Origin: a virus
Virus record (IMG/VR): IMGVR_UViG_3300037485_001992
Span: 1 to 64,000 of that record
DNA length: 64,000 nucleotides
Direction: 5' to 3' (one strand)
Shown: one piece after another, positions 2,802 to 42,032 of the stretch
How the letters are laid out: each line of letters starts with the position of its first letter
Position numbering within the stretch: position 1 is the first letter of the stretch
Position numbers and translations under genes: made by a program
The notes under the pieces: model-generated
Told to the model about the DNA's origin: nothing
The model's input: the letters and a program-made list of their open reading frames with translations, nothing else
Database searches by the model: none

Positions 2802-3161
2802 TCACAAGATAAACTCGTCGTCGTCCTTGGGTGTGGGCTTGACAGGCTTTGCAGCAGGTGTTGGTTTGGCGACGGGCTTAGGCTCAGGCTTAACGTCAAC
2901 AAGTGCATGAGTTGGTCTATCGTCTTCACTGATAAATCCTCTCGACGCAGTGACCAGCTTCGTCCAAAGTTGTTCTTTGATCTCCCCCACATGACCGTTC
3001 ACCCAGCGACTGAGGGTGACACGTGTGACACCAATGGTGTCAGCGAGGTCTTCTCCCAAACGCTTGTAACGCTCCCTCAGAAGCAGGATTTTTTCCTCGA
3101 TTGTCATATCCTTAGCTCCAACTTTCACTAACTTCTCCGAACGGGACGGGGTTTTAGCCAT
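2802..3161 (-). CDS. helix-turn-helix DNA-binding protein with KP-rich linker and DDDEFIL tail, 119 aa
   Basis: ATG at 3161 follows AAAGGAG with good spacing. Residues 20-75 contain an XRE/Cro-like helix-turn-helix (LADTIGVTRVTLSRWVNG is typical of helices 2-3). Residues 85-112 are a lysine/proline repeat resembling histone H1 tails, and the protein ends in the acidic tail DDDEFIL. That tail recurs on the SSB-like protein, DNA polymerase, SF3 ATPase and a 154-aa protein here, suggesting a shared partner. Upstream is a promoter-like TTGACA inside a 7-bp inverted repeat, so autoregulation is plausible. Function as repressor or nucleoid-associated protein is inferred. Confidence 0.75.
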   Translation of the reverse strand: MAKTPSRSEKLVKVGAKDMTIEEKILLLRERYKRLGEDLADTIGVTRVTLSRWVNGHVGEIKEQLWTKLVTASRGFISEDDRPTHALVDVKPEPKPVAKPTPAAKPVKPTPKDDDEFIL

Positions 3162-5440: not shown

Positions 5441-5978
5441 CTTGCACCTCCTTCTTCCCAACGCGCAGGCCGAAGGGCACACGCCCATCCCGCACATCAA
5501 TCATGTGGGAGCGATGGGAAGCGAGCATCGAATCGCCATGCTGTTCAAGCTGCTGCGAAGCAAAAGCCCTTACCGTCTGCCACAGTTCGAACGGAATCGT
5601 TGTGAACTGTGCTTCGCCCTCAGGGAAGCAGAGGTCAGAGAAGCCGAGGATGCGGATGCCCACAGGGTCTGTGATACCAAAGAACTGCATCATCTCTCCA
5701 CCAAGCATCATCGCCTCTTTCACCGTGACCTTATCGTCCTTCGTCGCTTCACGAAACGCGTCTACCATAGCTTTCTTGATGGGGTAGAGGCGCTGCTCCT
5801 CAGGTGGAATCTCCACCCCATCCTCTGCGAGCATCTTCTCTTCAGGAAGGTCTGCTGTCTCATTCATGATCAACTCCGCTGCTTGTTCTGCCGTAATCAA
5901 TCCTTCCACGATCTCTCCTTCTTCGTTTCTTGGAAAAACCATATCCATCAACATCTGCTGCTTCACTGCTAAGCTCAT
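5415..5978 (-). CDS. hypothetical acidic protein, 187 aa
   Basis: ATG at 5978 overlaps the stop of the resolvase gene as ATGA, with AAAGAAG just upstream; a second in-frame ATG at 5993 is possible. The sequence (MSLAVKQQML...) is acidic and largely helical. It resembles the tail-assembly-chaperone-like or DUF-type small acidic phage proteins only in composition. It sits between the resolvase and small unknown genes in the DNA-metabolism operon, which hints at a replication or recombination accessory role. No motif supports more. Confidence 0.6.
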   Translation of the reverse strand: MSLAVKQQMLMDMVFPRNEEGEIVEGLITAEQAAELIMNETADLPEEKMLAEDGVEIPPEEQRLYPIKKAMVDAFREATKDDKVTVKEAMMLGGEMMQFFGITDPVGIRILGFSDLCFPEGEAQFTTIPFELWQTVRAFASQQLEQHGDSMLASHRSHMIDVRDGRVPFGLRVGKKEVQDGDESPNG

Positions 5979-6451
5979 TGCTTCTTTATCCATGCGTGGC
6001 CGATACCCAAAGCATCGCACATTCCATCTTGCATCACTCTGCATCCCTTAGGCTTCAGCTGCGAAACCATCGATGGGTACAACCTTTGTGCTGCCATGCG
6101 TGACCTGTCCTTTGGTGCTGTCTTCACCGGGATGCCAGCGTGGAAGATTTTCGTCCAAACGTTTGGCGCCACGAATTCGAGTCTGCACTTCTCTGCGATG
6201 GTCGCACCAATGATGCAACCAACGTCTCGCCCGAACTTAAATGCAGCTGGTGCGCTCTGACCGGGCATCCCTCCCACCTTCTCCAGCACCACCGTTGTCA
6301 TATGCTCCAGCATCTCGCAGATTGTCACGATGTCCACGTCGCTCCCAATCATTGGCATCGCCATGGCGCCAAGAGGTACGCCTTCCTCCCAGATGACGAT
6401 GCCTCCTTTCTGTCCGGGGTCGATACTCATCCATCTCTGCGGCAGCTTCAT
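5975..6451 (-). CDS. RuvC-like Holliday junction resolvase, 158 aa
   Basis: ATG at 6451 overlaps the helicase stop (ATGA). The protein has an RNase H-like fold signature: SIDPGQKGGI with Asp11, VVLEKVGGMPGQ with Glu57, then FKFGRDVGCIIG, the P-x-x-W patch, and QDGMCDALGI with Asp142/Asp146. These match the four-acid metal site and spacing of RuvC-type crossover junction endodeoxyribonucleases of phages. Length (158 aa) is typical. It would cut branched DNA during recombination and before packaging. Neighbouring SNF2-like helicase and PD-(D/E)XK nuclease fit a recombination module. Confidence 0.85.
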   Translation of the reverse strand: MKLPQRWMSIDPGQKGGIVIWEEGVPLGAMAMPMIGSDVDIVTICEMLEHMTTVVLEKVGGMPGQSAPAAFKFGRDVGCIIGATIAEKCRLEFVAPNVWTKIFHAGIPVKTAPKDRSRMAAQRLYPSMVSQLKPKGCRVMQDGMCDALGIGHAWIKKQ

Positions 6452-7761
6452 TCTCCCAATCCCCCTAGTGCTCGTTGTTCAATTGCATCTTTTCTTTGTA
6501 GCGCAGCTTCAATCTGCTCATCAATCCCCTCGCGCACAATCGAATACACGATGCAAGGTTTCGTCTGGCCAATGCGATGGATGCGTTTCATCGCTTGACG
6601 GTTCGCAGAGGGGAGCCAATTCTTGTCATTCACGATGCAAATACTTGCTGCTGTCAGCGTCTGTCCCACACCCATCGTCTTCGTCGTTGCTACCAGAACA
6701 TCCGTGAGACCAGCTTGAAAGTTCTCGACAAACTCATCCCTCTTCCGCATTGATATAGATCCGTGTACGAGGCTGCAAGAGTATTCCGCTCCTTCAAAAA
6801 TCTCAGCCAAGCGGCACGCGGCCCGCACATGATCGGTGAACACGACGAGTGGGCCGAGTCCTTGTTCAAGCAAGTCAAGTGCGAAACGGCCAGTCTTTTC
6901 CGCTTTTTCAAATGCGTTTCTAGCCTTTGCTGTTGAGAAGTGCTCACCTCCCACGGTCTCCTCATCCTCATCCCACATCTCTTGCTTGCGCCCAGCTTGA
7001 AACGCTCCCCATTCAGTCCGCAGTTGTGACTCAAGTGCTTTGCTTCCTCCCTCAATCCCAATCTCAATAAGTCTAAGCGGAGGGAGGTCTGTCTCTTGCA
7101 TCGTGTATCGGATGTAAATAGGCTTGATCCACTCACGCAGCTCCTCCTCGTTTCGCAGTCCTTCATACTCCGTCACCATGAACCCACCACGCTTCACCAG
7201 GCGCGTATGGGTGAACTCTCGCGCGAAGCTCCCCCACGAAGGGAACGCTTCACGGAATCCACAGTTGTTGACAAAATCAAGAAGCTTCAGTGGGTGGTAG
7301 AGGTCTGGTATCTTGTTGTTGAGGATGGTACCACTCATGAGAAGAAGGCGCCGGGGCTTGTACTTCTTGATATAATCGTGGAGCGTCTTACTTCGCTTCG
7401 CTTTGGGATTGCAGCAATATTGCGCTTCGTCGATCAAGTAAACACGCGCAACTTTGAATAGCTCCGGGCAACGTCCAATCATCTCGTATGACATCACGAT
7501 GATGTTCGTGTCTTTCTTCAATCGAAACTTGGCATCATACCTTTGCATCTTCAGTTCAGGGAAAAGGCGCGCGGCCTCCCTCATCCAATTGTGGCAGAGG
7601 GAAGCGGGGACAATGGCAAGGCATGGCTCTCCTAGTATTCTCGCCAATTCAAGCGCCGTGACGCCCTTTCCCGTTCCCATTTCCGATGCGTCGAGCACCC
7701 CGCGTCGCTTCATGATGCGGGCGAGAGTTTTGACCTGGTGCTTTCGTAGGGTGACAGGCAA
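6448..7761 (-). CDS. SNF2-like SF2 DNA helicase/translocase, 437 aa
   Basis: The start is TTG at 7761, 7 nt after GAGGAGG. All main SF2 motifs are visible: Walker A SEMGTGKG (Lys32), DEAQ box LIDEAQ (111-114), motif III LMSGT (about 142), motif V-like VATTKTMGVGQTLT and motif VI KRIHRIGQT near residue 395. RIHRIGQ is characteristic of the SNF2/Rad54-like branch. At 437 residues it is a compact helicase core like those in many phages. It probably remodels DNA in recombination-dependent replication. It lies between the Fe-S-type nuclease and the resolvase. Confidence 0.88.
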   Translation of the reverse strand: MPVTLRKHQVKTLARIMKRRGVLDASEMGTGKGVTALELARILGEPCLAIVPASLCHNWMREAARLFPELKMQRYDAKFRLKKDTNIIVMSYEMIGRCPELFKVARVYLIDEAQYCCNPKAKRSKTLHDYIKKYKPRRLLLMSGTILNNKIPDLYHPLKLLDFVNNCGFREAFPSWGSFAREFTHTRLVKRGGFMVTEYEGLRNEEELREWIKPIYIRYTMQETDLPPLRLIEIGIEGGSKALESQLRTEWGAFQAGRKQEMWDEDEETVGGEHFSTAKARNAFEKAEKTGRFALDLLEQGLGPLVVFTDHVRAACRLAEIFEGAEYSCSLVHGSISMRKRDEFVENFQAGLTDVLVATTKTMGVGQTLTAASICIVNDKNWLPSANRQAMKRIHRIGQTKPCIVYSIVREGIDEQIEAALQRKDAIEQRALGGLGE

Positions 7762-7838: not shown

Positions 7839-9599
7839 CTATTCGTCAGCAAGCTTCTCGACCATCTTCTGGAACTCGTCTGTCACTTCGCCATCACGGA
7901 GGACGACGACTTTTTTCTTCGCAAGAGCCGTGGAAATCTCCACCGCGCGGGCCTTCTTTGCAGCCTTCTCACGCCACTTCTTGCCCCAGTGACCGTCAAG
8001 CTCAGTCATCAGCAGCGGGCTTGTTTCTTTGTTGCCAGCGACCCACACCACTTCGTCAGCAGCCTTCACCTTAGCCTTGCCCTTGGCGACTGGCTTCTCT
8101 TCTTCCTCCTCGTCTTCCTCAGGCTCTTCCTTCGGAGCGGGCTTAGCGGCCTTCGCAGGCTTCGCTACGGGCTTCTCCTCTTCCTCGTCCTCAGGCTCTT
8201 CCTTTGTGACAGGAGCGGCCTTCGCTGCAGGCTTAGCCTCTTCCTTCGTGCTCTGGACAGTCGTGGGGAATCCGCCCTTCGGTGGCGGCAAGCCCTTCAC
8301 ACCAAGCATCTCGCACCAAGCGTGGAAAATCTGGTCTTGGCGCAAGTTAGACAAGTGAATCCAAAACTGGACTTTGATGTCGTTCATCGCCCTCTCAATG
8401 CACTCATTCATCCATGCTGCATCGACGGTCTTCGCTGTCTCGAAATAGAAGGGACGGCTGTATTCCTGCCCACCCAAGGAGCAAGACACGATGACGCGGC
8501 ATGACTTCTCAGAAGGAAACCAATTCGTTTCTTTGACTACAACATTCAGCATATCTAGCTCCTCTTTGTTTATGTTCGGTGGAGTCCAGACAAGGTCCCC
8601 CACATCAATGATGTTCTCTGGCTCGATCACTTTCCCAGTCTTATTATTGCGAACTGCAGTGCGGGAGATGTGAACCTTCTTCTTGCTCTCTGTCGCCGTG
8701 CATCCGTAACATTGTGACCAATACTCGCAGGTGTGGTTAAACTCAAGACAGGCGGCGTAATTTCTCCTGGGTGGGAGAATCTCGTGGCCCATCTCTTCTG
8801 CTTGGAACTGCGTTGCCCCGTCCGCTCCCAGGTCCATCGCCCGAAGCCACATCGCCTTGTGCTCTGCGACCACCCGCTCCACGTCCATGTCTTCCTTCAA
8901 GACGTGCATGAAGTAACAACGGATGTTGGCCCTTTCGCGGAAACTCTCAAGGGATTCTTGATAGCCAGGGACAAGCTTGGTCTTGCACACTGCGCGGTAG
9001 ATGACTCCTGCAAAGTCTGCGAGGTCCACGTCGTACCCGAGGTCACGCAACGCTTCCACAACCTGCGGAAGATGCTCTGTGTACAAATTCAATTGTGGGT
9101 CATGCGTGAGACGGTTGGGCAGAAGGTCTTTCCACCAACCTGTCGACTTCAAATCCACAATCCAAAACCTGCCACGCTTGTCGATTCCGATGGCATCAAT
9201 CTTTCCGTAGGAGTGGTTAGACCTGATCTCCATTTCGCAGAGAACAATCGTCAGACCCGACCTGTCTGATACTTCGTAATACGCCATTATGCAGGCGTAG
9301 AGATGGTAAAAATCCATCTCATCAGACAGGTCTTCCGCCTCCATCGCCTCAATCAAGATGCGACGTTTGAACTCTTTGCGCGTGTGGTGCGTATGCTCTG
9401 CAATATGGTGAAGAGCACTTCCAAACTTGAACGGGTGCCAGTCAGGTTTAGAGTCTGGGTCATGCGGGACCTTCGCCACCTTGTAGAAATAATACTTCGC
9501 CTCACACATCCGTAGCGTCTGGTCAGAGGAGTGAGAGAGCGTGGTGGGAAGGTCCGTCTTGTCGATGGGATCAATGACCCCCTCTTCGTGGAAACTCAA
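7839..9599 (-). CDS. PD-(D/E)XK nuclease with Fe-S-type cysteines (Cas4/AddB-like), 586 aa
   Basis: TTG at 9599 overlaps the upstream TGA (TTGA), with GGGGAG 8 nt before it. Motifs: MCEAKYYFYK with Cys32, FGSALHHIAEH, GKIDAIG with Asp135, and IVDLKS with Asp149/Lys151, the catalytic PD-(D/E)XK core. Cys284, Cys291, Cys297 and Cys300 with Cys32 recall the 4Fe-4S staple of Cas4 and AddB nucleases. Residues 440-510 are two imperfect KEEPE(D/E)EEEE...KPVAK repeats, and an unrelated roughly 70-residue domain follows. Probable exonuclease in phage recombination. The charged linker and extra domain are unusual. Confidence 0.82.
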   Translation of the reverse strand: MSFHEEGVIDPIDKTDLPTTLSHSSDQTLRMCEAKYYFYKVAKVPHDPDSKPDWHPFKFGSALHHIAEHTHHTRKEFKRRILIEAMEAEDLSDEMDFYHLYACIMAYYEVSDRSGLTIVLCEMEIRSNHSYGKIDAIGIDKRGRFWIVDLKSTGWWKDLLPNRLTHDPQLNLYTEHLPQVVEALRDLGYDVDLADFAGVIYRAVCKTKLVPGYQESLESFRERANIRCYFMHVLKEDMDVERVVAEHKAMWLRAMDLGADGATQFQAEEMGHEILPPRRNYAACLEFNHTCEYWSQCYGCTATESKKKVHISRTAVRNNKTGKVIEPENIIDVGDLVWTPPNINKEELDMLNVVVKETNWFPSEKSCRVIVSCSLGGQEYSRPFYFETAKTVDAAWMNECIERAMNDIKVQFWIHLSNLRQDQIFHAWCEMLGVKGLPPPKGGFPTTVQSTKEEAKPAAKAAPVTKEEPEDEEEEKPVAKPAKAAKPAPKEEPEEDEEEEEKPVAKGKAKVKAADEVVWVAGNKETSPLLMTELDGHWGKKWREKAAKKARAVEISTALAKKKVVVLRDGEVTDEFQKMVEKLADE

Positions 9600-10111
9600 A
9601 GCACGAACTCCCCATCCTCTTCGTCATCATCTGCAGGGAGACTATCAGCGAACCGCTTCCGCTTCGCAGCTGGCTCTTCCTCAACCTGTTCCTCGAAACG
9701 AGGTTTGCGTGAGGGTGGCTTGTGAGCAGGAGCTGCTTCCTCCTCTTCGCGCTTCGCAACGTCTGCCGAACTTCCCATGGAAGAATCGAACAAAGTCTTG
9801 TCACGGAAGAGTTTGAGATTGTGGGCATAGGTCCCTGCATACGGACCCTTCTTCATCTTGTCCATTCCGGCATACTCAATTTTGATGTAGTCGCCAGGAA
9901 CGATGTTCGCTTCTTTGAATTTTTTCTCAAGGAGTGTGCAGCCATTCGCAATGAAAAGTGAACCAGTATCTTTGTCTTTGATTTCAAAATTCGGAATTGC
10001 GAATCGCCCTTTGCGTCGGCCTCGGTACCAGCCTTCGCAGACCGTTTCCCCGATTTCCATATCTTTATACGACTTGAAATTTCCTTGTCCGCCTTCTTCC
10101 TCAAAAGCCAT
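9596..10111 (-). CDS. putative ssDNA-binding protein with acidic EFVL tail, 171 aa
   Basis: ATG at 10111 lies 9 nt after AAGGA. Residues 1-110 read as an OB-fold-like beta domain (short alternating strands, SLFIANGCTLLEKKF, GDYIKIEYAG). Residues 110-150 are a low-complexity Glu/Pro/Lys linker, and the C-terminus is FADSLPADDDEEDGEFVL. An OB-fold plus disordered linker plus acidic tip is the plan of phage T7 gp2.5 and bacterial SSB. The 154-aa protein at 17470 ends in almost the same FADSLPADDDEEEFIL. A 185-bp upstream gap without a gene probably carries its promoter. Confidence 0.65.
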   Translation of the reverse strand: MAFEEEGGQGNFKSYKDMEIGETVCEGWYRGRRKGRFAIPNFEIKDKDTGSLFIANGCTLLEKKFKEANIVPGDYIKIEYAGMDKMKKGPYAGTYAHNLKLFRDKTLFDSSMGSSADVAKREEEEAAPAHKPPSRKPRFEEQVEEEPAAKRKRFADSLPADDDEEDGEFVL

Positions 10112-10296
10112 ATTACTGTTTCCTTCCTTACTGCTTACTGCTTCGTGTTTCCTGGCGTTTCCCCTTTGTGTGCGGCTTTGCCATGAGGCACAGGGCTATC
10201 TCTTGCAGTGGAGAGTTTGTGTGATTTTCCTCAGCCAGTAGTGTTTAAGGGAAACTGGAAAAGGTACCACCACAAGAGACAGTGTGGGTGAGACTA

Positions 10297-10716
10297 TCAG
10301 CGAAGGGCGGGATTTGCAAGCGTTACGTTTGAATCGTCACCATCCTCAAGAGATGGTAGGGAATCCGCCAGATTGACCCTTGCCAACGCCCGTTTTATGT
10401 GCCGCTCGATGGGGTAGAAAGTGCTCGATGGGTCAGTGATGGGACCAGCCAACTCCACCGCTGCAGCCACTTTCAGGAGCGTCACCTCGCCTGGTGCATG
10501 GCAGAGCACATAGCCGCCGTTCGTGCCGCGTTGGCTGCTGAGGATTCCCCCAGCGCAGAGGAGCTTCAGGAGGTCATCAGAAAGCGTGGACGAGCAATTC
10601 CTCTTGCCCAGTAGCATCTCGCGCGTGTAGCGACCCGCAGAGCCAAGATTGCGGTCCTCTTCCGCCATCCGCGTCAGAAGCTCCCAAGCAATTCTCGTGT
10701 AGTGTGTCAGGCGCAT
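10297..10716 (-). CDS. Rrf2-family winged-helix regulator lacking cluster cysteines, 139 aa
   Basis: ATG at 10716 has GGGGAGG 5 nt upstream. MRLTHYTRIAWELLTRMA at the start and LCAGGILSSQRGTNGGYVL around residues 55-75, followed by TLLKVAAAVEL, match the Rrf2/IscR winged helix and its wing (GG-x-x-S-x-R-G-x-x-GGY). Rrf2 proteins act as dimers on promoter DNA. The three C-terminal cysteines that hold the Fe-S cluster in IscR are absent, so it should be cluster-independent. Its tail contains LADSLPSLEDGDD, reminiscent of the FADSLPADDD tails of two replication proteins here. Confidence 0.78.
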   Translation of the reverse strand: MRLTHYTRIAWELLTRMAEEDRNLGSAGRYTREMLLGKRNCSSTLSDDLLKLLCAGGILSSQRGTNGGYVLCHAPGEVTLLKVAAAVELAGPITDPSSTFYPIERHIKRALARVNLADSLPSLEDGDDSNVTLANPALR

Positions 10717-10901
10717 CGGTCCCTCCCCTGTGATTTTTCTTCCTGCGTCCAGCCGCGGGCCTTTGTATGGTCCGCGCGACCCTCTCGGATGTCCTTTAAC
10801 TCCCAGTCCCACAGTCGTCTCCCAGCGCAGTCCGTCGTCAGCGTGTTGTCATCCATCATCCCGCCACACACATCACACCAGACGCAATCCTTGTGTTCCA
10901 T
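10707..10901 (-). CDS. small cysteine-rich (zinc-knuckle-like) protein, 64 aa
   Basis: ATG at 10901 follows GGAGG by 6 nt; it overlaps the Rrf2 gene start by 10 nt. The N-terminus has Cys6-x2-Cys9-x2-Cys12 and another Cys near 25, suggesting a small zinc site; the rest is charged. It is one of several short Cys-rich proteins in this operon. No family name can be given. Confidence 0.6.
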   Translation of the reverse strand: MEHKDCVWCDVCGGMMDDNTLTTDCAGRRLWDWELKDIREGRADHTKARGWTQEEKSQGRDRCA

Positions 10902-11000
10902 GGCTTCCCTCCCTGCGAATACCAACCGACCCTAAGTGTTTGGTCATACGCTGCGGGTCGGCGGGACTACATGTCCATTGAGAGTGGGAAGGGTAGCACG

Positions 11001-11441
11001 TCATTCCGCCTTCTTCAACCACTGTGCCTTGTTGCGGATGGCGTTTTCAGAAACACGGTTGATGTTCTCTGGCGCCATCCCGTTACACTTGCATTGGCTG
11101 CTGAAGAAGAAGAGCTTCCCCTTCATGTAAAAGTCATACGATTTTCCGCAGCGTGGGCAAGTGCGATAACGGTAGCGTTGGCCCTTCTTCATCCACCAAA
11201 TGATGGCATCAACCGCGTCTTCTGGTGGGACCTCGACAGGAGGCGTTGGTTCTGGGAGTCCAGCCTCGAGATTCTTGAGAGGCTTCCGCCCGTACCACGT
11301 CTCGCGTCCATTCACGGCCTGGTCAAACATCTCAAGACACCCAGAGAGGAAATTCGAAAGGATGAAGTCTGGGGTGTTGGAACCGTTCTCTTTTGAGTGT
11401 CGGTTGAGGAGTGTCTCGACGTCTTTCCTGAATTCATCCAT
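11001..11441 (-). CDS. hypothetical protein with C-terminal zinc ribbon, 146 aa
   Basis: ATG at 11441 is the best start (AGG about 5 nt upstream); the longer frame would overlap the upstream gene heavily. Residues 70-80 are proline-rich, and CPRCGKS plus QCKCNG about 20 residues later form a zinc-ribbon-like CxxC...CxC. The C-terminus is helical and basic (NRVSENAIRNKAQWLKKAE). Zinc ribbon plus basic helix suggests nucleic-acid binding. A 99-bp gap with no convincing gene follows before the next gene (10902-11000). Confidence 0.62.
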   Translation of the reverse strand: MDEFRKDVETLLNRHSKENGSNTPDFILSNFLSGCLEMFDQAVNGRETWYGRKPLKNLEAGLPEPTPPVEVPPEDAVDAIIWWMKKGQRYRYRTCPRCGKSYDFYMKGKLFFFSSQCKCNGMAPENINRVSENAIRNKAQWLKKAE

Positions 11442-11442
11442 G

Positions 11443-11865
11443 TTACCTGCCAGCCCTTCTGAGATCCATCTCCAAATTGAAATGGGTCTTGTACTGCTGC
11501 AAGTCTGCAATCATCTCTTGCAGTGTCTCGATTGTCTTCTCTGCAGTTGCAAGCTTCTCAGCCATGCGGTTTGAGACCTCGTTGAAGAGAGGCATCTTCT
11601 CAAACGCCGTGGCGAGAGACTCCTTCACCACCCCGACAATCTCCAAGGGATTGCTCTTTCCCAGCAACGCAGCATCGAGGGAAGACCGACTGATTTCGAG
11701 GGTGACTGGGAACGTGATTTCGAGAGTGACTCGCTTCGTGTAGCGGTCAGGAAGAGTGTCAACCGTCATCTGCGAGTTGGCAAATGGGACGCCAAGCATC
11801 TGGCTAATGATAACAACAACTGCGTCGTCAATCTTGTTTGGTGTTGTGAATTTCAAGCTACTCAT
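11443..11865 (-). CDS. hypothetical protein with C-terminal coiled coil, 140 aa
   Basis: ATG at 11865 overlaps the upstream stop by 8 nt. Residues 1-60 are mixed strands (KRVTLEITFPVTLEISRSS); residues 75-140 are a regular amphipathic helix (RMAEKLATAEKTIETLQEMI) likely to form a coiled coil. Its upstream neighbour is also coiled-coil, so the two may pair. No known family recognised. Confidence 0.6.
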   Translation of the reverse strand: MSSLKFTTPNKIDDAVVVIISQMLGVPFANSQMTVDTLPDRYTKRVTLEITFPVTLEISRSSLDAALLGKSNPLEIVGVVKESLATAFEKMPLFNEVSNRMAEKLATAEKTIETLQEMIADLQQYKTHFNLEMDLRRAGR

Positions 11866-12448
11866 ACGGCACCACCACGATAGGTGCAGTAGTGGTTCTG
11901 AATGCAAGTTCCGCCGCCCCTTCAATATTCCCACTCTTCAACCAAGCTACAATATGGTGAAGCTCATTGTGGCGATTCGCTGCGTCAGTATACCTCTTGT
12001 AAAAGTCCATCTTCTCTTGGAGGAGTCTCTCAATAACCTTCTTTTGCTCCTTCATGCAGGTCAAGTAGTTCTCAATCTTCCCCGATGCAATCTCACACGT
12101 CTTCCGTGCCTCTTCGCAATTCTCTCCCATCCCCTTCAGAGTCTTTTCCTGGACAGACATCTTGAACTCTGCTGCGTTCAACTTCTTCTCAGCCGCCTCA
12201 CGCTTCTTCTTCTCAGCCGCCTCACGCTTCTTCTTCTTCTCTTCGTCATACAGAGACTGCAGCGCAGTGAGGGATTCTGATGGGGAGAGTTGAAACACGG
12301 GTGGCTCATACTTCTTGATTGAGAGGTCCAAATACTCCTTTGCCATGTTGTCTATCTGTCCCTGGAACCCACGTATCCTGGCCCAAAGACTCTTCACTTC
12401 TCGTTCATGTTCGATTTGCAACTGAAGGTTTATGTCGTCAAAGTTCAT
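11858..12448 (-). CDS. coiled-coil protein with KKKREAAE repeat, 196 aa
   Basis: ATG at 12448 overlaps the upstream stop (ATGA). Nearly the whole protein is predicted helical, with an internal duplication of the octapeptide KKKREAAE (around residues 70-88) encoded by a 24-bp tandem repeat. Cysteines at about 111, 117 and 130 are scattered. A structural or scaffolding-type coiled coil is likely, but its partner is unknown; the adjacent coiled-coil protein is the obvious candidate. Confidence 0.65.
   Translation of the reverse strand: MNFDDINLQLQIEHEREVKSLWARIRGFQGQIDNMAKEYLDLSIKKYEPPVFQLSPSESLTALQSLYDEEKKKKREAAEKKKREAAEKKLNAAEFKMSVQEKTLKGMGENCEEARKTCEIASGKIENYLTCMKEQKKVIERLLQEKMDFYKRYTDAANRHNELHHIVAWLKSGNIEGAAELAFRTTTAPIVVVPYE
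12182..12230. repeat. 24-bp in-frame tandem duplication
   Basis: Two near-identical copies of a 24-bp unit (plus-strand core CTCAGCCGCCTCACGC flanked by TTC repeats) encode two KKKREAAE octapeptides in the coiled-coil gene. The copies are almost identical at the DNA level, pointing to a recent slippage duplication. Confidence 0.7.
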
Positions 12449-12684
12449 GGCATCGCCTCCCTAACTTCCATCTCAAACTCCACGAAGGGGTTGGCCCCTT
12501 CTCCCCAAACGTTGTTCACAGGAGCCCACTTCGCGCACCACTCACCCTCTGCAATCTTTGGGAAGTGGCTGACAGATTCGTAAGGGTCGTGAGGGATAGG
12601 AAACACCCTCGGGGACTCAGCCCTGCATTCTGTGTATTGCTTGTGCCACCACTGGCAGTTTCCGCACTTTAGCTTTTCGTTCAT
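12445..12684 (-). CDS. small cysteine/tryptophan-rich protein, 79 aa
   Basis: ATG at 12684, with AAGGA upstream. The layout CGNCQWW, ECRAESP and EWCAKW gives four cysteines (7, 10, 20, 50) interleaved with tryptophans, as in a common family of short phage and prophage proteins of unknown function that probably bind zinc. The acidic C-terminus overlaps the downstream ATG by 4 nt. Confidence 0.65.
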   Translation of the reverse strand: MNEKLKCGNCQWWHKQYTECRAESPRVFPIPHDPYESVSHFPKIAEGEWCAKWAPVNNVWGEGANPFVEFEMEVREAMP

Positions 12685-12696
12685 AGTCTGTCCTTC

Positions 12697-12921
12697 CTAT
12701 GGTTCTTCGTCAAAATAGTAAACTGCATTCCCCTTCGCGCCTCTGCGAAGAAGAGCAACGCGAATCCCTCGTCTCTTCAGTCGCCGTGCTCTCCTTCTGT
12801 CTGATGTGATGGCCTGGAAGCGCCCTTCCGCCACGAGAGAAAGATTGCCGTTGCACCTGAAGTAGTAGCCAAGGATTCCCACGTTTGTTCGTCGCGCGAC
12901 ACGCGCCTTCCTCCCCGTCAT
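12697..12921 (-). CDS. small highly basic protein, 74 aa
   Basis: ATG at 12921 overlaps the upstream TGA (ATGA). The protein is Arg-rich (DRRRARRLKRRGIRVALLRRG) with strand-forming stretches either side, which would suit RNA or DNA binding. No family recognised. It is followed by 12 nt before the ATG of the next gene. Confidence 0.6.
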   Translation of the reverse strand: MTGRKARVARRTNVGILGYYFRCNGNLSLVAEGRFQAITSDRRRARRLKRRGIRVALLRRGAKGNAVYYFDEEP

Positions 12922-13169
12922 ATCTGGCCCCAGTCTTCGCCCATGAACTTGCGAAACTCAACGCTGCACTCGTCGCAAAGTCTGACACGCGGGTAGATTC
13001 TCTTGTTCTCTCCCGCTACCACAAACTCTTCAACGTTCCGCAGCGAGAAGCCCATCGTCGTTGTCTGGCGCACTGGGCTTCCTGGTATCTCTTCAATTCG
13101 CAGCGCCCCAAAGCAGCGGGTGCAGTTCGTTGTACGTCCATTGACGCGGTGCATTGGTGTGTTGCTCAT
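12918..13169 (-). CDS. zinc-ribbon protein, 83 aa
   Basis: ATG at 13169 overlaps the lipoprotein gene stop (ATGA), with AAAGGA 7 nt upstream. CTRCFGAL and LCDECSVEF, 50 residues apart, form two CxxC knuckles of a zinc ribbon, and the intervening segment is basic. Probable nucleic-acid or protein binding; no specific role visible. Confidence 0.62.
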   Translation of the reverse strand: MSNTPMHRVNGRTTNCTRCFGALRIEEIPGSPVRQTTTMGFSLRNVEEFVVAGENKRIYPRVRLCDECSVEFRKFMGEDWGQI

Positions 13170-13360
13170 TTGCAATCCTTTACACTTTCACAAGGTACCG
13201 TCGTCACTTCTCTGACTCTTACCACCCAGCAAATGTTTCGTTTCACATCTTTCTCAACCTTGAAACTCTCACAGAAGCCGGTGCTCCCGCCTTCCTCCCT
13301 CATACAAGATACCAGCAGAAGTCCTGCTATAAGTGCTCCATATCTCACCCTAGTTCTCAT
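13166..13360 (-). CDS. phage-encoded lipoprotein, 64 aa
   Basis: ATG at 13360 follows GGAGGG by 5-6 nt. The N-terminus is a textbook lipoprotein signal: basic n-region MRTRVRYG, hydrophobic core ALIAGLLL, lipobox LVSC with Cys19. The mature part is about 45 residues with three further cysteines, able to form disulfides in the periplasm. It is far from the endolysin gene, so an Rz1-like spanin role is less likely. Small early lipoproteins of phages such as T5 (Llp) block receptors against superinfection, and that is my preferred but unproven idea. Confidence 0.7.
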   Translation of the reverse strand: MRTRVRYGALIAGLLLVSCMREEGGSTGFCESFKVEKDVKRNICWVVRVREVTTVPCESVKDCK

Positions 13361-13608
13361 CTTTCCCTCCACTCTACTCTCTTTGGTCCTTGGCAAGCAT
13401 CTAGCACATCAAGAATCATCTGTGCAATCACCCTCGCTGCATCATCATTCACGCACAAGACTTGTTGGAAGGGTCCATCCTCATAAGCAAGGTACGCAGT
13501 GATGACGTCTGCCGTCGTTTGCAGCTCGACTCTCACCCGCTGCGTCTCGTCGCCACGGACTGCATTCGGGTCATAGAATGGTTTCGATTCTCTCACCCAC
13601 GTTGCCAT
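13357..13608 (-). CDS. hypothetical protein, 83 aa
   Basis: ATG at 13608 overlaps the upstream TGA as TGATG, with GAGGAGG 5 nt before it; a TTG one codon earlier is less likely. The product is a small alpha/beta protein (RVRVELQTTADVITAYLAYE, then a helix VNDDAARVIAQMILDVLDAC). No family recognised. Its stop overlaps the lipoprotein start. Confidence 0.62.
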   Translation of the reverse strand: MATWVRESKPFYDPNAVRGDETQRVRVELQTTADVITAYLAYEDGPFQQVLCVNDDAARVIAQMILDVLDACQGPKRVEWRER

Positions 13609-13964
13609 CAATCCTCCTCATCGAAAGAGCAACTCATCGCGTATTCGTAACCTTCCCAGTTGTCCACCCCACACGCGTGGAGCACGTCAAGCTTGTCAGC
13701 TTTCTTCGTCGCCCGCATGAGCGCCACTTCGAGTTCGTCTCGTTCCTTGCGAAGTGCGCTCAACGCTCGGTACAAGTCCAAAGCGTCATACGTCATCGCG
13801 TTGTGTGTCTGTTCTTCTCTGTACATGAGTGGTCTGCCAAGGCAGATTGGGCACCAGTGGTCATAGACGTTCGCCTGACCCACCGTGCCGGAGTACACCC
13901 AATCGCAAATCGTGTTGCACTCCCCGCAGTACCTGTCAGGCAAAACGTAGTTTCCTCGTTTCAC
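13608..13964 (-). CDS. zinc-ribbon plus coiled-coil protein, 118 aa
   Basis: GTG at 13964 overlaps the preceding TAG (TAGTG), with AAGGAGG about 5 nt upstream. YCGECNTICDW and WCPICLGR (residues 13-43) make a four-cysteine zinc ribbon. Residues 55-95 form a charged helix (ALSALRKERDELEVALMRAT) suited to a coiled coil. The C-terminus ends in an acidic EED whose codons double as the ribosome site of the next gene. Role unknown. Confidence 0.62.
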   Translation of the reverse strand: MKRGNYVLPDRYCGECNTICDWVYSGTVGQANVYDHWCPICLGRPLMYREEQTHNAMTYDALDLYRALSALRKERDELEVALMRATKKADKLDVLHACGVDNWEGYEYAMSCSFDEED

Positions 13965-14287
13965 TAGCCCTCCTTCTCAATGTTTCGGTACGGGCAATCG
14001 AGACGGCGTCCCATCTCAGGGATTTTTGCATCTTCCATGCAGCCATCCTCCCAACGAAACATGCACTCGTCGCGCTCAACGTCTCGACAAAGGCACGCTT
14101 CTTCATTGCTGCGAGTGAAGCTGCACTGCTTGCCAAACACTCTCTTGAGGAGTGCTCTTGCCTCGTCACGTTCTTCCTGCAACTTATTTACGTCTTCAAA
14201 CGGTACCCAGGCTCCTTCAACGTGCTCGTCCATCTGCTGCCAACCGAATCCTCTTCCGCCGTGACTGGTCAGATTGTATCTATTCAT
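13964..14287 (-). CDS. cysteine-rich coiled-coil protein, 107 aa
   Basis: ATG at 14287 has AGGAGG 8 nt upstream. Residues 30-52 are coiled-coil-like; residues 55-100 contain six cysteines (ACLC, ECMF, GCME, DCPY) suggesting metal binding. The DCPY motif near the end resembles DCPF in the 105-aa protein at 14399, so the two may be distant paralogues. No known family. Confidence 0.58.
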   Translation of the reverse strand: MNRYNLTSHGGRGFGWQQMDEHVEGAWVPFEDVNKLQEERDEARALLKRVFGKQCSFTRSNEEACLCRDVERDECMFRWEDGCMEDAKIPEMGRRLDCPYRNIEKEG

Positions 14288-14394
14288 TCCTCCATCCTCC
14301 TCTTGCACTCTTTGAGCCATCTCTTCCTCTGCAGCTTCTTGAGCCACCCCTTGCGCCGTGGCCTCTTAAACGCCCCGTCGTAACAGGATTCCAT
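14284..14394 (-). CDS. very basic small protein, 36 aa
   Basis: ATG at 14394 is preferred because GGAAGAG lies about 8 nt upstream, across the stop of the previous gene; a longer 61-aa version would overlap that gene by 71 nt. The protein is almost entirely Lys/Arg/Trp (KRPRRKGWLKKLQRKRWLK), like a nucleic-acid-binding or membrane-active peptide. Start and even coding status are uncertain. Confidence 0.45.
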   Translation of the reverse strand: MESCYDGAFKRPRRKGWLKKLQRKRWLKECKRRMEE

Positions 14395-14398
14395 CCAC

Positions 14399-14716
14399 TC
14401 ACTCTTCCACCTGCGTGGGACGTGTGAGAACCTCATCGCTCCCCTCAAATATTGTGAATGGGCAGTCATCCCTTCGCTTCTCGTTCATGCTTTCCTCTCC
14501 GAGAAGGTTGCAAATAAAGTCTGTCGCTTCGAACCCACACTCTGCACACCCACGAGGGTAGGCCAATGTTCGTTTCGGGTATTGAATGATAAGTTTCGCA
14601 GCTTCCAGACGACGCTTCAAAATAGCGTTCTCTGCTTCTGCGTTCTCTGCGCGCTTCATCCACTCACCTAGAATCACGGCTCGGCTCTCGCCGTCATATG
14701 CCATCGGGTTAGTCAT
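14399..14716 (-). CDS. coiled-coil/zinc-binding-like protein, 105 aa
   Basis: ATG at 14716 overlaps the upstream TGA (ATGA). Residues 18-45 are a coiled coil (ENAEAENAILKRRLEAAKLI). GCAECGFE, FICN and DCPFTIFEG supply four to five cysteines as in the neighbouring gene at 13964. Probable zinc-stabilised small protein, function unknown. Confidence 0.6.
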   Translation of the reverse strand: MTNPMAYDGESRAVILGEWMKRAENAEAENAILKRRLEAAKLIIQYPKRTLAYPRGCAECGFEATDFICNLLGEESMNEKRRDDCPFTIFEGSDEVLTRPTQVEE

Positions 14717-14973
14717 TCCTTCACCTCTTCCAACACACCAAACCCACGAAGCGACGGCCCCTTCTCGTCCTCAGTGTCAATCACCAGCGACTCCAACTCA
14801 AACTTGACGTTGTTTTTCGGAAGGCCCAAATCTTCAGCGAAGATGGATTGCTGCTTCAATGATTCCTCTGCTGACGATTGGTGCTTGAAGTAGCGAACAA
14901 CTTCGCTCAAAAGTCCGCTGCGCCCATCCTTGTTTATCACCTTAACTTTTGTAACCCAGAACGTATATTTCAT
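14713..14973 (-). CDS. hypothetical protein, 86 aa
   Basis: ATG at 14973 overlaps the end of the DNA polymerase gene; the polymerase's GAGGAG codons (for Glu-Glu of its EEEFVL tail) lie 8 nt upstream and act as ribosome site. The product is a small alpha/beta protein beginning MKYTFWVTKVKVI. No family recognised. Strict coupling to the polymerase suggests a replication-linked role. Confidence 0.62.
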   Translation of the reverse strand: MKYTFWVTKVKVINKDGRSGLLSEVVRYFKHQSSAEESLKQQSIFAEDLGLPKNNVKFELESLVIDTEDEKGPSLRGFGVLEEVKE

Positions 14974-17039
14974 AGAACGAACTCCTCTTCCCTCAGGTAC
15001 GGTCGTAACATCTCATACTCTTTCACTGCTCTCTCATCAATGTAGATTTCCTGTGTCGCTACATGATTCCCTCCGGGTGTGATTACTTTTCCATCTTGCA
15101 CGAGTCCCGTTCCCCAGCAGTAGACGTCTTGGCGAATATCGACCATCACCCCCATGTTCCGCATATACGGGTCCATGTAGAAGTGGAATGCTTCGTTCAT
15201 CACGCGAGCAAGCAAGTCGACTGACACCCAATCATTCAACTCCTCCTCAACGTAGATGGCATCGTGCAGCGTCATGATGGGTGTGAGCCCTTCGTCCTGG
15301 GCCAATGCGATGCTCTTTCGCATGATGCTCCCACCCACGCCTTGCACTGGCATGTTCCCCACGGAGCGGAAATTCTGGTTATCAGCAAGCATCCTCCACC
15401 CACACGGGAGACGAATCGTTCCCGACTGACGATACTCGCGTTGCACCGTTTCTTTCCACTCTGCGAAGTCACAGTAGGTCTCATAAAAGAGGTCGATAAG
15501 TACCTGCGCTTCTTCCTCAGTACAAGCTTGCTTCGTGTCGTTCACAATCTTTTGTGACAGACCACGCGCCGTCATATCGTAAGAGATAGCGAGGACTGTC
15601 GCCTTGTACCTTTCACGTATGTCTTTGTGCGTGTGCTTCGTCGCTCCCTTCGGTGCTGCGCGAGATTGGATTGCGAACGCCATATAGACGTCGCCTGACA
15701 TGTAAGCTTCGAGCATCTTCTTGTCGCCAGAGAGAAGCGCAGAAAGAAGGAACTCTTCGCTTCCATAGTCGCTACCCACAATCATCTTGCCGACTGGTGG
15801 GTGCACGAGACCCCTGAGCGCGGCGGATTTGAGGAAGACATAGCCCGTGGCAGATGGTTGGGAGCGGCTGCTCTGGGCGCCGTAGATTCCAAAGTATGGG
15901 CGCGCCCTTCCATCTTTTCCGAGGTAATCATAGAAGCTCTTCTTCGAAGTTTCCTTGAGCGGGCGGAAGCCATTGATGGACTGATTGAAGCGCGAGAACC
16001 TCAATAGCTGATCCACCGGGTCGTCTCTAAATTCGTGTCGCGAACCACTCACCTTTGAGAGCGTCTCTTCGTCGAGGCATGGGGCTTTCGTGGGTGTGCG
16101 CTTCGGCCATCGCTTCCCGTATTTCTGGTCGACCCAATCCCCGATGAGCTTGACGTTTCGCGTGAAGGACTTTGTCTTTCTGTCCCAGGAGAACATCTTG
16201 AATCCAAGTTCTCGCTCAGTTCGTTTAATAATATCCCTCTGCAACGCTTGCAGTAGAGAAGGAATGTTAGCTGTAAGCGCCCGCAGCGCAGGCACGTCAA
16301 CCGGGTAGCCGACTCCGACCATGCGAGCCGTGCGAGCAGCGTACTCTGCGCGACGATACTGCTCCCTGACCAACTCTTGTTCGTCCACCTCGTCTTCATG
16401 ACTCGACAAATAATCCACCCAGTACGACCACATCTCAGAGTGAAGCGGTGCAAGGTGCTCAACGTCTGACGCGCAGTATTCCATGATGCGCTTCTTCTCA
16501 TCCTCATTGAATGGTCCTCCCCTGATGATGCGCCCGCGCACCTCATGTTTTTCCTGCGTGTCGACAATCTTCCCAAGCATCTTGAATGCCGCCGCCGCGT
16601 AGTTCATCTCCGCTTGCGAATAGTCTTCCGATGAATCCTTCTCTTCTCGCCACCTGGGAGGTACATCTGTAACGCGTACCTTTCCCTTGATGAGCTGCTT
16701 CCCGTATTCCAGTTCGTGGTTGTGGTTGAGCAGCTGCCGGTATTCAAGATAGAGGTCGACGGCCTTCCACGGCACACTATCGAAACCAAGCGCCAGGAGC
16801 GCCCTAGACTCTGCTTCCCACGAGTAGGAGCTGAACACATAGCCTGACCTCGCCCAGACGTCTACGAACGCCTTAAACTGCCGCAGCGATGGTCCTCCGT
16901 CATAGAGCCATTGTGACATGACGGCGTGACGCTTTCCCCCATCCACCACCTGCCATGATACGCATACAGGTGTAACGTTCTCTTCTTCTGTGTTGCAGTA
17001 TTCGAAGTCAAGATACACGAGTTTCTTCTGTGGTACCAT
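14970..17039 (-). CDS. family A DNA polymerase with 3'-5' exonuclease, 689 aa
   Basis: ATG at 17039 follows AGAGGAAACC. The exonuclease domain has LDFEYCN (Asp11, Glu13) and EYCASDVEHL (Tyr188, Asp192), a DEDDy-type proofreading site. The polymerase domain has motif A SDYGSEE (Asp424), motif B RERYKATVLAISYD (Arg475, Lys479) and motif C LHDAIYVEE (His592, Asp593). At the position of E. coli Pol I Phe762 it has Leu483, and at the Gly767 position Asp488. Length is close to T7 gp5 without a thioredoxin loop. The C-terminus LREEEFVL is the tail shared with the SSB-like protein and SF3 ATPase. Main replicative polymerase. Confidence 0.92.
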   Translation of the reverse strand: MVPQKKLVYLDFEYCNTEEENVTPVCVSWQVVDGGKRHAVMSQWLYDGGPSLRQFKAFVDVWARSGYVFSSYSWEAESRALLALGFDSVPWKAVDLYLEYRQLLNHNHELEYGKQLIKGKVRVTDVPPRWREEKDSSEDYSQAEMNYAAAAFKMLGKIVDTQEKHEVRGRIIRGGPFNEDEKKRIMEYCASDVEHLAPLHSEMWSYWVDYLSSHEDEVDEQELVREQYRRAEYAARTARMVGVGYPVDVPALRALTANIPSLLQALQRDIIKRTERELGFKMFSWDRKTKSFTRNVKLIGDWVDQKYGKRWPKRTPTKAPCLDEETLSKVSGSRHEFRDDPVDQLLRFSRFNQSINGFRPLKETSKKSFYDYLGKDGRARPYFGIYGAQSSRSQPSATGYVFLKSAALRGLVHPPVGKMIVGSDYGSEEFLLSALLSGDKKMLEAYMSGDVYMAFAIQSRAAPKGATKHTHKDIRERYKATVLAISYDMTARGLSQKIVNDTKQACTEEEAQVLIDLFYETYCDFAEWKETVQREYRQSGTIRLPCGWRMLADNQNFRSVGNMPVQGVGGSIMRKSIALAQDEGLTPIMTLHDAIYVEEELNDWVSVDLLARVMNEAFHFYMDPYMRNMGVMVDIRQDVYCWGTGLVQDGKVITPGGNHVATQEIYIDERAVKEYEMLRPYLREEEFVL

Positions 17040-17048
17040 GGTTTCCTC

Positions 17049-17216
17049 TTACAGTATTGGGAGATAGACTTTTTCGAAATACCAACGGGCGACAGCCACC
17101 ATCCACCCGGCGTTGGGTGGAGATGGCGGGGCGAGATAAACAGAATGTTCATTGAGCATGGCGATGCGCCACTCGCGTTTCTCGTAGATGATGTGATCGC
17201 CAAGAGCGAGGGTCAC
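17049..17216 (-). CDS. hypothetical protein, 55 aa
   Basis: GTG at 17216 overlaps the upstream stop (GTGA), with GGGGAAG upstream; a TTG start at 17264 would overlap the neighbour by 52 nt and lacks a ribosome site. The product looks like a small beta-barrel fragment (GDHIIYEKREWRIAML...), reminiscent of short SH3-like phage proteins, but this is only impressionistic. Confidence 0.5.
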   Translation of the reverse strand: MTLALGDHIIYEKREWRIAMLNEHSVYLAPPSPPNAGWMVAVARWYFEKVYLPIL

Positions 17217-17473
17217 AAGCTCTTCCCCATCCTCTCCATGCCAGGCCCACCAGCTTCTATCCAAGAGTTGTACATGTCAGTGAAAGAGACTCCCCGGTGC
17301 TCTGGCTTGGAGAACCAACCGATTAGCGCAGGGACCTTTGAAAACTGGTTATTGCGCTCTCCCTCTCTGAAGATGGCTCGAAGCTCCTCAATAGTACCCT
17401 CGTTCTCTCTTCCCTTGTCAGCGAAAGTATAAAACAACCGAAAAAATGTTTCCCAGAACTCTTCGCGCGTCAT
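17213..17473 (-). CDS. hypothetical protein, 86 aa, paralogue of the 154-aa neighbour
   Basis: ATG at 17473 overlaps the upstream TGA; GAGGAG in the neighbour's tail codons is 8 nt upstream. Residues 50-72 (LIGWFSKPEHRGVSFTDMY) align with LLTWLNKPDNWGVAVSEMY in the upstream 154-aa protein, and both share a GKSL further on, so they arose by duplication. This copy lacks the acidic C-terminal tail. Function unknown. Confidence 0.6.
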   Translation of the reverse strand: MTREEFWETFFRLFYTFADKGRENEGTIEELRAIFREGERNNQFSKVPALIGWFSKPEHRGVSFTDMYNSWIEAGGPGMERMGKSL

Positions 17474-17934
17474 AAAATGAACTCCTCTTCATCATCGTCT
17501 GCAGGAAGGCTATCTGCAAATCGCTTCCGTTTCAGGATTGGGTCTTCCTCAGGCTGTTCCTTCGGAGTGTCTGGCTCCCCACCTGTCCGAAGATCAGCCC
17601 CAGCTTCAGCCAGACTTTTACCTCTGCTTGCCTTTGCAGCTCTCTCCTCTTCCTCAATAAATCGTCGATACATCTCAGAGACTGCGACTCCCCAATTATC
17701 CGGCTTATTAAGCCATGTCAGTAACTCCTGCTCCCTGACAGGGTTGTGGTATCCGAGATTCAGATCCGTAGCCAGTCTATGGACCCAACCCAGATGGGAA
17801 ATCCCTCGCTCCGAGAAAATCTCGAAATGACTCAAGAATACTAGCCACTCTCTCACGCTTGGGTGGTAGGCATTCTTGACGTACTTCTTATCGTAAAAAT
17901 CCTTCTCACCAACGCCCCTGTCATCAACTTTCAC
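17470..17934 (-). CDS. unknown replication-arm protein with FADSLPADDDEEEFIL tail, 154 aa
   Basis: GTG at 17934 overlaps the SF3 gene stop (GTGA). Residues 30-100 hold a W/K-P/G-V/M-Y domain shared with the 86-aa protein downstream. Residues 115-135 are a Pro/Glu linker, and the end KRKRFADSLPADDDEEEFIL is nearly identical to the SSB-like protein's end although the DNA differs at many third positions, so the peptide is under selection. The gene lies between the SF3 ATPase and the DNA polymerase, so it is a candidate replisome component. No named family recognised. Confidence 0.65.
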   Translation of the reverse strand: MKVDDRGVGEKDFYDKKYVKNAYHPSVREWLVFLSHFEIFSERGISHLGWVHRLATDLNLGYHNPVREQELLTWLNKPDNWGVAVSEMYRRFIEEEERAAKASRGKSLAEAGADLRTGGEPDTPKEQPEEDPILKRKRFADSLPADDDEEEFIL

Positions 17935-19598
17935 AACACAAACCCCTCTTCTTCCTCTTCAATTGACGCTTCAGTCAACTCATTATCTCGACCCTTCCAG
18001 CGAACCCCGTGAAATACTCTGGCCCCGAAATCCCCAGACTTCATACACCCCGTCTTGTTTTTCGTGTCAGTTCCCACCATACCCTTTATCAAGTTGTCAA
18101 AAGTTTGAAGAACTGTTTCTTTCTCCCGTACCAACGTTGTGCGACTGTCGGGAGAGTTCCTCATCGCGCGCTGGTAGTGCGGGCGAAACCACTTCCACAA
18201 ATCTTCTTCGTACACCTTTGCGGTATTGTCCACGACTAAATTATTCTCTATGTAGGACCTAACTACGTTCCTGATTGGCTTGTCGCAACGGAGTTTGATA
18301 TTGTCCCACATGGTTTCTGGCACTTTGATGTCTCGATACTTCCCGTCTTGCTTCTTGCACAGCTTCTCATGAACGACTCCACAAGCATGAAGAAAATGCC
18401 AGAACTCTTCCCGGTACCTGCTGATGACTTCAGAGTCTGCTTCCTCCTCATTGAAAGGCTGCACGACAAAATAGAGAAGACGAGTTCGCATTGCATTGTT
18501 TGTTGTGTCCACCTCAGGTGCAACATTCGAATGGGCCACGACACGAGCGAAGAGCTTCGCGGCGAAGCTACTGATAAACTTTATTTCCATCTCCCCCATG
18601 TCACCGCCAGTCAATTGCTTGACCAGTTCCGAGCCGAGATAGTATTTGTTTGAGCAGTCGGGGGCCATGGCAAATCGTTTCAAGTAGCACTTGGCGGCGG
18701 TGAACTGATTGGCATACGACGTCTTCTGAAGGACGACGGCAATCTTTTGAAGGTGCTCATACACCACGTTCCAAAACGTCGATTGACCCGAGTGACCCAG
18801 TGACTGAGACCACACCATCTGTCTTCCGAAATCCTCTGGGTCGAAACATTTCCAGATGAAAGCCATCAACTGGTCTGGATGGTCGACCCTTGCGATAAAC
18901 CTTTTCAGATGGGGCCAAGGACCGGGAACACACTTCGTCGAGTCGAACCTGACGAACGCATTCTCGTCCCATGCCATGAGAGGGAGAGAGCCAGACAGAA
19001 TGCACTCCTCAACATCCTGGTCGATGAGAATCTTCTTGAAAGCCCAAAGCATGACGTCCCCAATCTCTGGGATAGCCACTCGCTTAGCTGCCATGTAAAG
19101 GGTGACGTTGTCCTCAATTATTTGCTGAACGTCTTTCCTCCACGCAGAATACTCGGCTGCATTCTGCTGCCGGATTATGCTGATTATCTCTGCAAGTTGG
19201 ATAGAGCTGGTGGGGAGGAATCCTACTTTGTACAGGTCGAGGGAGGTCTCGGTAAGGATGTAGGTTGAAAGCCTTCCGTCCCTTGTCAGGAGTCTCACAT
19301 ACTTTTTCAAGTATTGTATTGTTCGATTCGTTAGGCTCTGGTCCACGTTCCTGACGTTGGTCTTCACCTGGTTGTCCCCCGCCTTCGCCTCTTTCTTCTT
19401 CTTGTTCTTGACCGTATCTAACATTTCCTGAGACTCCGATTCTTTCTTAATCCCATAAACCTGACCTACTGCATATGCCGTCACTTCCTCTTCCTTACTA
19501 GCAAACTCGTTGTCCGCTTTCCAGACAAGTTTGGTTCCAACCATTTCAGACAACTTATCCAATGGTTCGACTGGCTTCACAACCTCTGTTTTACCCAT
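17931..19598 (-). CDS. SF3-type (D5-like) replicative helicase/ATPase with degenerate Walker A, 555 aa
   Basis: ATG at 19598 follows GAGGGAG closely. Residues 80-215 resemble the D5-N region. Residues 240-385 follow SF3 order: Walker A position SLGHSGQST (266-274), Walker B FAMAPD (309-314), KQLTGGDMGEMEIKF, sensor HSNVAPEVD (Asn358) and MRTRLLYF (Arg371/373). The Walker A lysine is Gln272 (codon CAA), which in known P-loop ATPases abolishes or weakens ATP hydrolysis. No primase domain is obvious. The C-terminus EEEEEGFVL is the shared replication tail. First gene of the operon, probably read from the promoter at 19635-19663. Confidence 0.78.
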   Translation of the reverse strand: MGKTEVVKPVEPLDKLSEMVGTKLVWKADNEFASKEEEVTAYAVGQVYGIKKESESQEMLDTVKNKKKKEAKAGDNQVKTNVRNVDQSLTNRTIQYLKKYVRLLTRDGRLSTYILTETSLDLYKVGFLPTSSIQLAEIISIIRQQNAAEYSAWRKDVQQIIEDNVTLYMAAKRVAIPEIGDVMLWAFKKILIDQDVEECILSGSLPLMAWDENAFVRFDSTKCVPGPWPHLKRFIARVDHPDQLMAFIWKCFDPEDFGRQMVWSQSLGHSGQSTFWNVVYEHLQKIAVVLQKTSYANQFTAAKCYLKRFAMAPDCSNKYYLGSELVKQLTGGDMGEMEIKFISSFAAKLFARVVAHSNVAPEVDTTNNAMRTRLLYFVVQPFNEEEADSEVISRYREEFWHFLHACGVVHEKLCKKQDGKYRDIKVPETMWDNIKLRCDKPIRNVVRSYIENNLVVDNTAKVYEEDLWKWFRPHYQRAMRNSPDSRTTLVREKETVLQTFDNLIKGMVGTDTKNKTGCMKSGDFGARVFHGVRWKGRDNELTEASIEEEEEGFVL

Positions 19599-41954: not shown

Positions 41955-41975
41955 AAGTGTCTCCTAGAAATGAAG

Positions 41976-42009: not shown

Positions 42010-42032
42010 GCCTGCACGATGGAATGCTGGAA

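Follow-up and report, generated by a model that had tools for sequence, protein, structure and literature searches.

Shared docking tails at the C-termini of phage proteins are already known from T7 and T4, and in T7 the gp4 tails attach to basic patches on the polymerase (PMC12593628). Here we describe matching C-terminal tails on five proteins of a virus, encoded in a window of 64,000 nt (the whole stretch of DNA analyzed) from the 66,884-base IMG/VR virus record IMGVR_UViG_3300037485_001992, together with the tails on replication proteins of its relatives. What is new is that matching tails recur across deeply diverged phages that have a family-A polymerase and an SF3 helicase, with a sequence private to each phage, and that the tail appears to be transferable to another protein by DNA duplication. 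No prior description of within-phage C-terminal tail matching was found in the literature (open-licence papers).

Five matching C-termini in the window

The five C-termini, all encoded on the minus strand, are exactly as given in a preliminary description of this DNA, which had pointed out that they end alike. The SSB-like (single-stranded DNA [ssDNA]-binding) protein (9596-10111; 171 aa) ends in DDDEEDGEFVL, the family-A DNA polymerase, PolA (14970-17039; 689 aa), in LREEEFVL, a 154-aa helical protein with a linker (17470-17934) in DDDEEEFIL, the SF3 helicase/primase-type ATPase (17931-19598; 555 aa) in EEEEEGFVL, and a helix-turn-helix (HTH) DNA-binding protein with a Pro/Lys linker (2802-3161; 119 aa) in DDDEFIL. 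The last eight codons plus stop occupy 9596-9622, 14970-14996, 17470-17496, and 17931-17957, respectively, and the last seven codons plus stop of the HTH gene occupy 2802-2825. Among the minus-strand genes of the window, the [E/G]-F-[V/I]-L ending is limited to these five. Of all 757 open-reading frames with 30 aa or more in the six frames of the window, six ended in [FYW][VILM][LIVMF], these being the five tailed genes and one plus-strand frame, a homing endonuclease (45275-46771) that ends in DIAFVL and is without an acidic tail. From the composition of the window, a gene has a probability of 3.5e-4 of ending in F[VI]L, giving P = 2.8e-11 for at least 5 of 60 genes, a post hoc figure because the motif was picked after the fact, and the comparative test across genomes described below is, therefore, the stronger evidence.

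The homing endonuclease (phrog_3339, 5.6e-45) is encoded opposite to the structural genes around it, which are on the minus strand. Among the matches listed, its homologues align only up to residue 490, and an FVL tail as a trait of the family is not demonstrable.

The tail codons differ between the genes, as had been claimed. In four of the five tail genes, the end of the gene and the start of the following one overlap by 4 nt (NTGA), and GAGGAG or GGGGAG lies a short distance upstream; no gene is clearly coupled to the HTH gene. The earlier proposal that GAGGAG doubles as a ribosome site, explaining part of the tail and not F-V/I-L, agrees with this, as the ribosome site accounts for the acidic codons only. 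Five other genes of the same region with an equal 4-nt overlap end in LGGLGE, REAMP, DWGQI, SFDEED, and LEEVKE, indicating that coupling is not the source of F-V-L. In some relatives, among them L027, L015, and L142, a gap of 35-120 nt separates the tailed SSB gene from the next gene. Given the five coupled genes without FVL and the variety of codons, translational coupling was ruled out as the cause of the tails.

Three of the tailed proteins were assigned by family matches: PolA to PF00476 (1.4e-16), with a conserved core that stops near Tyr681 and the tail coming after it, the SF3 protein to PF19263 (2.5e-6; DUF5906/primase-helicase) and phrog_1156, and the HTH protein to PF01381 (5.2e-5). 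The SSB-like protein had no Pfam or PHROG match, including to PF10991/phrog_112 (Enc34/DUF2815 SSB). Its homologues in relatives sit between the polymerase (Pol) and exonuclease genes, and its AlphaFold (AF2) model contains a confident beta-barrel over approximately residues 10-110 followed by a disordered tail (predicted local distance difference test score, pLDDT, 55-60). PDB matches to this model were weak (best E 0.05 or worse), many of them being OB folds that include mitochondrial and bacterial SSBs, and viral matches include an annotated ssDNA-binding protein at an E of 6e-3. Synteny, homologues, and the predicted barrel make it likely that 9596-10111 encodes an SSB-like protein with an OB fold. 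The AF2 model of the 154-aa protein shows a helical domain and, again, a disordered tail, with no significant PDB match for the fold.

Within-phage matching in related genomes

Single-sequence scans with Pol, portal, and SNF2 proteins found no relatives, none were found among genome contigs (genome_contigs set), and the SSB-tail DNA pattern had 0 matches among viral contigs. Queries with a polymerase alignment returned six relatives first and more in a later search. After removal of near-copies, the comparison set consisted of 15 other genomes with Pol 35-41% identical, or 16 with the window; gene calls in the relatives are mechanical, and their records may be incomplete. Ortholog clustering returned as widely conserved only Pol, SSB, exonuclease, SF3, SNF2, and two head/packaging families.

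The tails differ between phages, and the replication proteins within one phage mostly match each other. In L141, Pol ends in DREFDL, SSB in DFDFDL, and SF3 in EEEFNL; in L013, Pol ends in DYNI, SSB in DFNI, and the exonuclease in DFLDI; and in L143, Pol, exonuclease, and SF3 end in NLELL, EQDLL, and NAELL. L145 carries two pairs (SSB EEDLF with SF3 WEDLF, and Pol NLNLL with exonuclease LENLL), and further examples are L151 (Pol EVDLL, exonuclease EGDLL), L027 (exonuclease AVDLL, SF3 FTDLL, Pol KTHLL), and L150 (exonuclease LDLLF, Pol LDLLL). The SSBs and exonucleases of L013 and L141 belong to other families (Enc34-type SSB, matching PF10991/phrog_112 in L013, and DUF2800-type nuclease); all of these but the L141 nuclease nevertheless match the Pol of the same phage. 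SSB was tailed in 15 of the 16 genomes. On the Pol tree, which is deep and has poor resolution, the F-x-L class of tails needs at least two origins. In the Silvanigrella phage L002 (CP017838; Pol 30%), no matching tails were present, the Pol ending in QLIA; the Pol gene of this record is cut by the record ends (42-332 and 41704-43334), which makes a circular or circularly permuted genome probable.

Matching was assessed by shuffling genome labels independently in each family (Pol, SSB, exonuclease, and SF3) and scoring BLOSUM62 similarity within genomes over 20,000 shuffles. For the last four residues, the observed score was 2.17 against a null of -1.34 (standard deviation 0.51, z ~7), with p = 5e-5, the resolution limit, in the 16 genomes. 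No signal was found at residues -10 to -6, -15 to -11, or -20 to -16 (p = 0.16, 0.51, and 0.66), and p = 0.011 at residues -30 to -26 is taken as chance or residual relatedness; the matching signal is confined to approximately the last six residues. Without the window, p was still 5e-5. When only proteins with acidic/hydrophobic tails were compared, the observed score was 5.98 versus 1.26 (p = 5e-5), indicating that tail presence alone cannot drive the match, and this held when each well-supported clade was represented by a single genome (p = 1e-4) and when the window was additionally left out (p = 0.002). Compared with gene sets drawn at random from the same genome, the Fisher-combined P was 5e-15. 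A Fisher test showed no significant co-occurrence of tail presence or absence on Pol, exonuclease, and SF3, the signal being one of residue matching.

A second set of 87 distinct loci with an Enc34-type SSB was examined in ten comparisons. SSB and SF3 tails match in this set (n = 52, p = 0.0006), SSB-exonuclease (p = 0.085) and SSB-Pol (p = 0.35) were not significant, and exonuclease-Pol was marginal (p = 0.027 among the ten comparisons). Individual cases include Yersinia phage YeP5 (L056), in which exonuclease and SSB both end in AESLI, E. coli phage 611R5 (L057), with TADLI and AEALI for the same two proteins, and Streptococcus phage Javan575, in which SSB ends in DDDFLN and the primase in DDDFLD. 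YeP5 and 611R5 are isolated phages and convenient for tests. Two Enc34-type SSBs, in L132 (DDDIPF) and L060 (8911-9489; DDDLPF), end like bacterial SSB tips, which suggests mimicry of the host SSB tip.

The window also holds what appears to be a copied tail. The SSB and 154-aa genes have in common a 79-nt direct repeat, D3, that encodes the tail at 80% identity (9615-9693 and 17483-17561, both minus strand). Between the two copies, the 16 repeat codons for KRKRFADSLPADDDEE contain 8 synonymous and 0 amino-acid differences, and the codons flanking these 16 on both sides contain 5 amino-acid changes. The adjacent gene (17213-17473, minus strand) encodes an 86-aa paralogue of the 154-aa protein (BLASTP 28% over 67 aa, E 9e-8 in a single comparison) that is tailless and serves as a natural control. 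With no amino-acid change in the duplicated tail and a paralogue that lacks it, the tail peptide was presumably copied and then kept by selection.

Neighbouring genes on the minus strand encode a PD-(D/E)XK exonuclease (7839-9599; PF12705), which is untailed in the window (ending in EKLADE) and tailed in several relatives, and an SNF2/SF2-type helicase (6448-7761; PF00176/PF00271), an untailed and conserved member of the module. The SNF2 helicase is in the gene sets of 14 of 15 genomes and almost never tailed, the exception being L146 (ending in INLL), and label shuffling of SNF2 versus each family gave no tail-matching signal. A Holliday junction resolvase was assigned by family match at 5975-6451. 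Tails of the type seen on the replication proteins also occur, in four relatives, on small genes lying upstream of the large terminase: EDEELL in L143 (2933-3463), EEEELL in L145 (29580-30125), SPIDLL in L027 (22354-22863), and DDSDML in L151 (18746-19291), and one of them matches the terminase small subunit. The virion region of the window encodes two giant proteins of 2145 aa (20594-27031; no Pfam match) and 1832 aa (34744-40242), and a PAPS-reductase/DndC-like reading frame at record positions 65136-66143 (L003 5136-6143) is seemingly interrupted by a stop codon that divides it into two parts.

A docking model and its alternatives

The tails had been proposed to be a phage docking motif for one hub, and the within-phage matching across 16 genomes argues for this proposal; the phenomenon is broader than the preliminary description had suggested. 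That description had also looked to conservation of the last eight residues in related phages, and had counted homologues lacking the tail against docking. The letters are not conserved in the relatives and the within-phage agreement is kept, and untailed homologues do occur, as the Pol of L009, L012, L144, and L152 has no tail while the SSB of these phages keeps an acidic/hydrophobic tip (DDLA in L009). Since the EFVL letters vary by phage while within-phage agreement stays, the absence of a tail from a homologue is too simple a measure.

On the strength of these sequence comparisons, the tails are probably short docking ligands of the SSB-tip kind with one shared receptor. A flexible, mostly acidic stretch with a free hydrophobic C-terminus would form a short linear docking ligand. 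Within a phage, this ligand would be the same on Pol, SF3, SSB, and the accessory proteins that bind DNA, so that a single receptor pocket could accept them all and they could be brought to the replication fork or exchanged there. We infer binding itself, a single receptor, and a receptor encoded by the phage; because the tail code changes from phage to phage, the last is more likely than a conserved host protein. The best phage-encoded candidates, each doubtful when taken singly, are the SNF2-type helicase and the OB groove of the SSB. The former is a candidate by elimination and not by proof, as the one conserved protein of the module that is almost never tailed, and the latter because crystals of phage SSBs show acidic C-termini lying in the concave groove of adjacent molecules (PMC5686142). 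The polymerase or another protein would be the next candidate. A more tentative extension, to which we give somewhat less than even credence, is that each phage of this polymerase lineage has a private C-terminal address code read by a co-evolving phage receptor, which would keep its replisome together and apart from the machinery of the host and of co-infecting phages, and into which new proteins would be enrolled by tail copying.

Several observations weigh against docking to one receptor. Some replication proteins are untailed, namely the window exonuclease and the four Pols named above. Tails of the DLL kind are simple and could have converged, and the genomes, deeply diverged as they are, are not fully independent. 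In the Enc34 set, clear matching was seen only for SSB-SF3 and not for SSB-exonuclease or SSB-Pol.

The alternative that survives best, although unlikely, is a host receptor, such as the beta sliding clamp, an SSB-tip-binding protein, or another hub, with tails that vary because hosts differ. The pockets of the beta clamp and of SSB-tip-binding proteins read near-universal motifs, whereas these tails vary widely. The clamp motif Q-phi-x-[LM]-[FL] or its hexamer form, as defined in PMC11139829, was not found among the tails, 1 of 62 fitting a loose Gln-containing pattern, and the bacterial SSB tip (acidic, then [ILV]PF) was found in 0 of 62 tails of the Pol set and in 2 SSBs of the Enc34 set; both motifs were rejected as the identity of the tails. 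These two SSBs, ending exactly as bacterial SSB, nevertheless speak for a host receptor, as do the beta-clamp ligands that can be extreme C-termini, in which Gln is important and not strictly essential (PMC11139829), and the T7 polymerase, which works with a host processivity factor (PMC12593628). Also in its favour, PF00712, PF02916, and PF00705 detected no sliding clamp in any of 15 records (the window and 14 relatives), although a strongly diverged clamp could escape this search, in which controls for PF00712 and PF00705 work well and PF02916 is almost without a positive control. A phage clamp as the obvious hub was set aside on this result.

Independent electrostatic or autoinhibitory tails, each mimicking ssDNA and folding back onto the protein that bears it without a shared receptor, would be consistent with the SSB tails lying in neighbours' grooves in crystals and with SSB being the protein that is almost always tailed. 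This is improbable, as it leaves the match of the last four residues across unrelated folds of one phage unexplained. Free hydrophobic C-termini are typical ligands of proteases and PDZ-type proteins, and the tails might be tags for the turnover of early proteins, but restriction to replication proteins, phage-private sequences, and similarity to SSB tips would not be expected of such tags, and we regard this as very improbable. Least credible is a coding artefact, with the tail codons serving as ribosome-binding site for the gene that follows and overlaps; this reading is largely refuted, despite the 4-nt overlaps at four of the five tails, by the equally overlapping genes without F-[VI]-L, the differing codons, the HTH gene, and the gaps in L027, L015, and L142.

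Should docking to a shared receptor hold, any protein bearing the tail of its own phage could be recognized as a replisome member by a cheap sequence signature. The search for the receptor is directly testable with short peptides, and these phages would provide a natural system for the co-evolution of a short linear motif and its receptor.

Comparison with known systems

Modules of the Enc34/DUF2815 type resemble the window in their gene neighbourhood (exonuclease, SSB, PolA, SNF2-type helicase, and SF3 primase) and in acidic SSB tails, and this SSB type is present in L013 and L141. They differ in that the window SSB is without a PF10991/PHROG match and in that the Pol of typical Enc34 modules is untailed. 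The bacterial SSB tip (DDDIPF) is similar in combining a disordered acidic tail and a terminal hydrophobic residue with what is, for the window, a probable OB-fold SSB. Unlike that tip, tails of the Pol set end in FVL, DLL, FDL, YNI, and others rather than PF, and the ligand is carried by other replisome proteins as well.

In T4, gp43, gp55, and gp33 have clamp-binding C-termini, and the window is similar in presenting one C-terminal epitope on Pol (EEFVL) and on an HTH protein (DEFIL), but in this phage lineage SSB, helicase, and nuclease are also tailed. T7 is like the window in its family-A polymerase replisome, in an acidic stretch with a terminal hydrophobic residue, and in the matching ends of its SSB and helicase (DEDGDF for gp2.5 and NDTDF for gp4, compared to GEFVL and EGFVL for the window SSB and SF3). 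The T7 terminal residue is Phe, whereas in the window it is Leu with Phe third from the end, and the T7 helicase is DnaB-like rather than SF3. The T7 polymerase acts as the receptor and has no such tail, while in the window the polymerase, the HTH protein, and the 154-aa protein are all tailed. With the polymerase itself tailed and no clamp family detected in the 15 records, neither the T7 nor the T4 precedent transfers directly to this phage.

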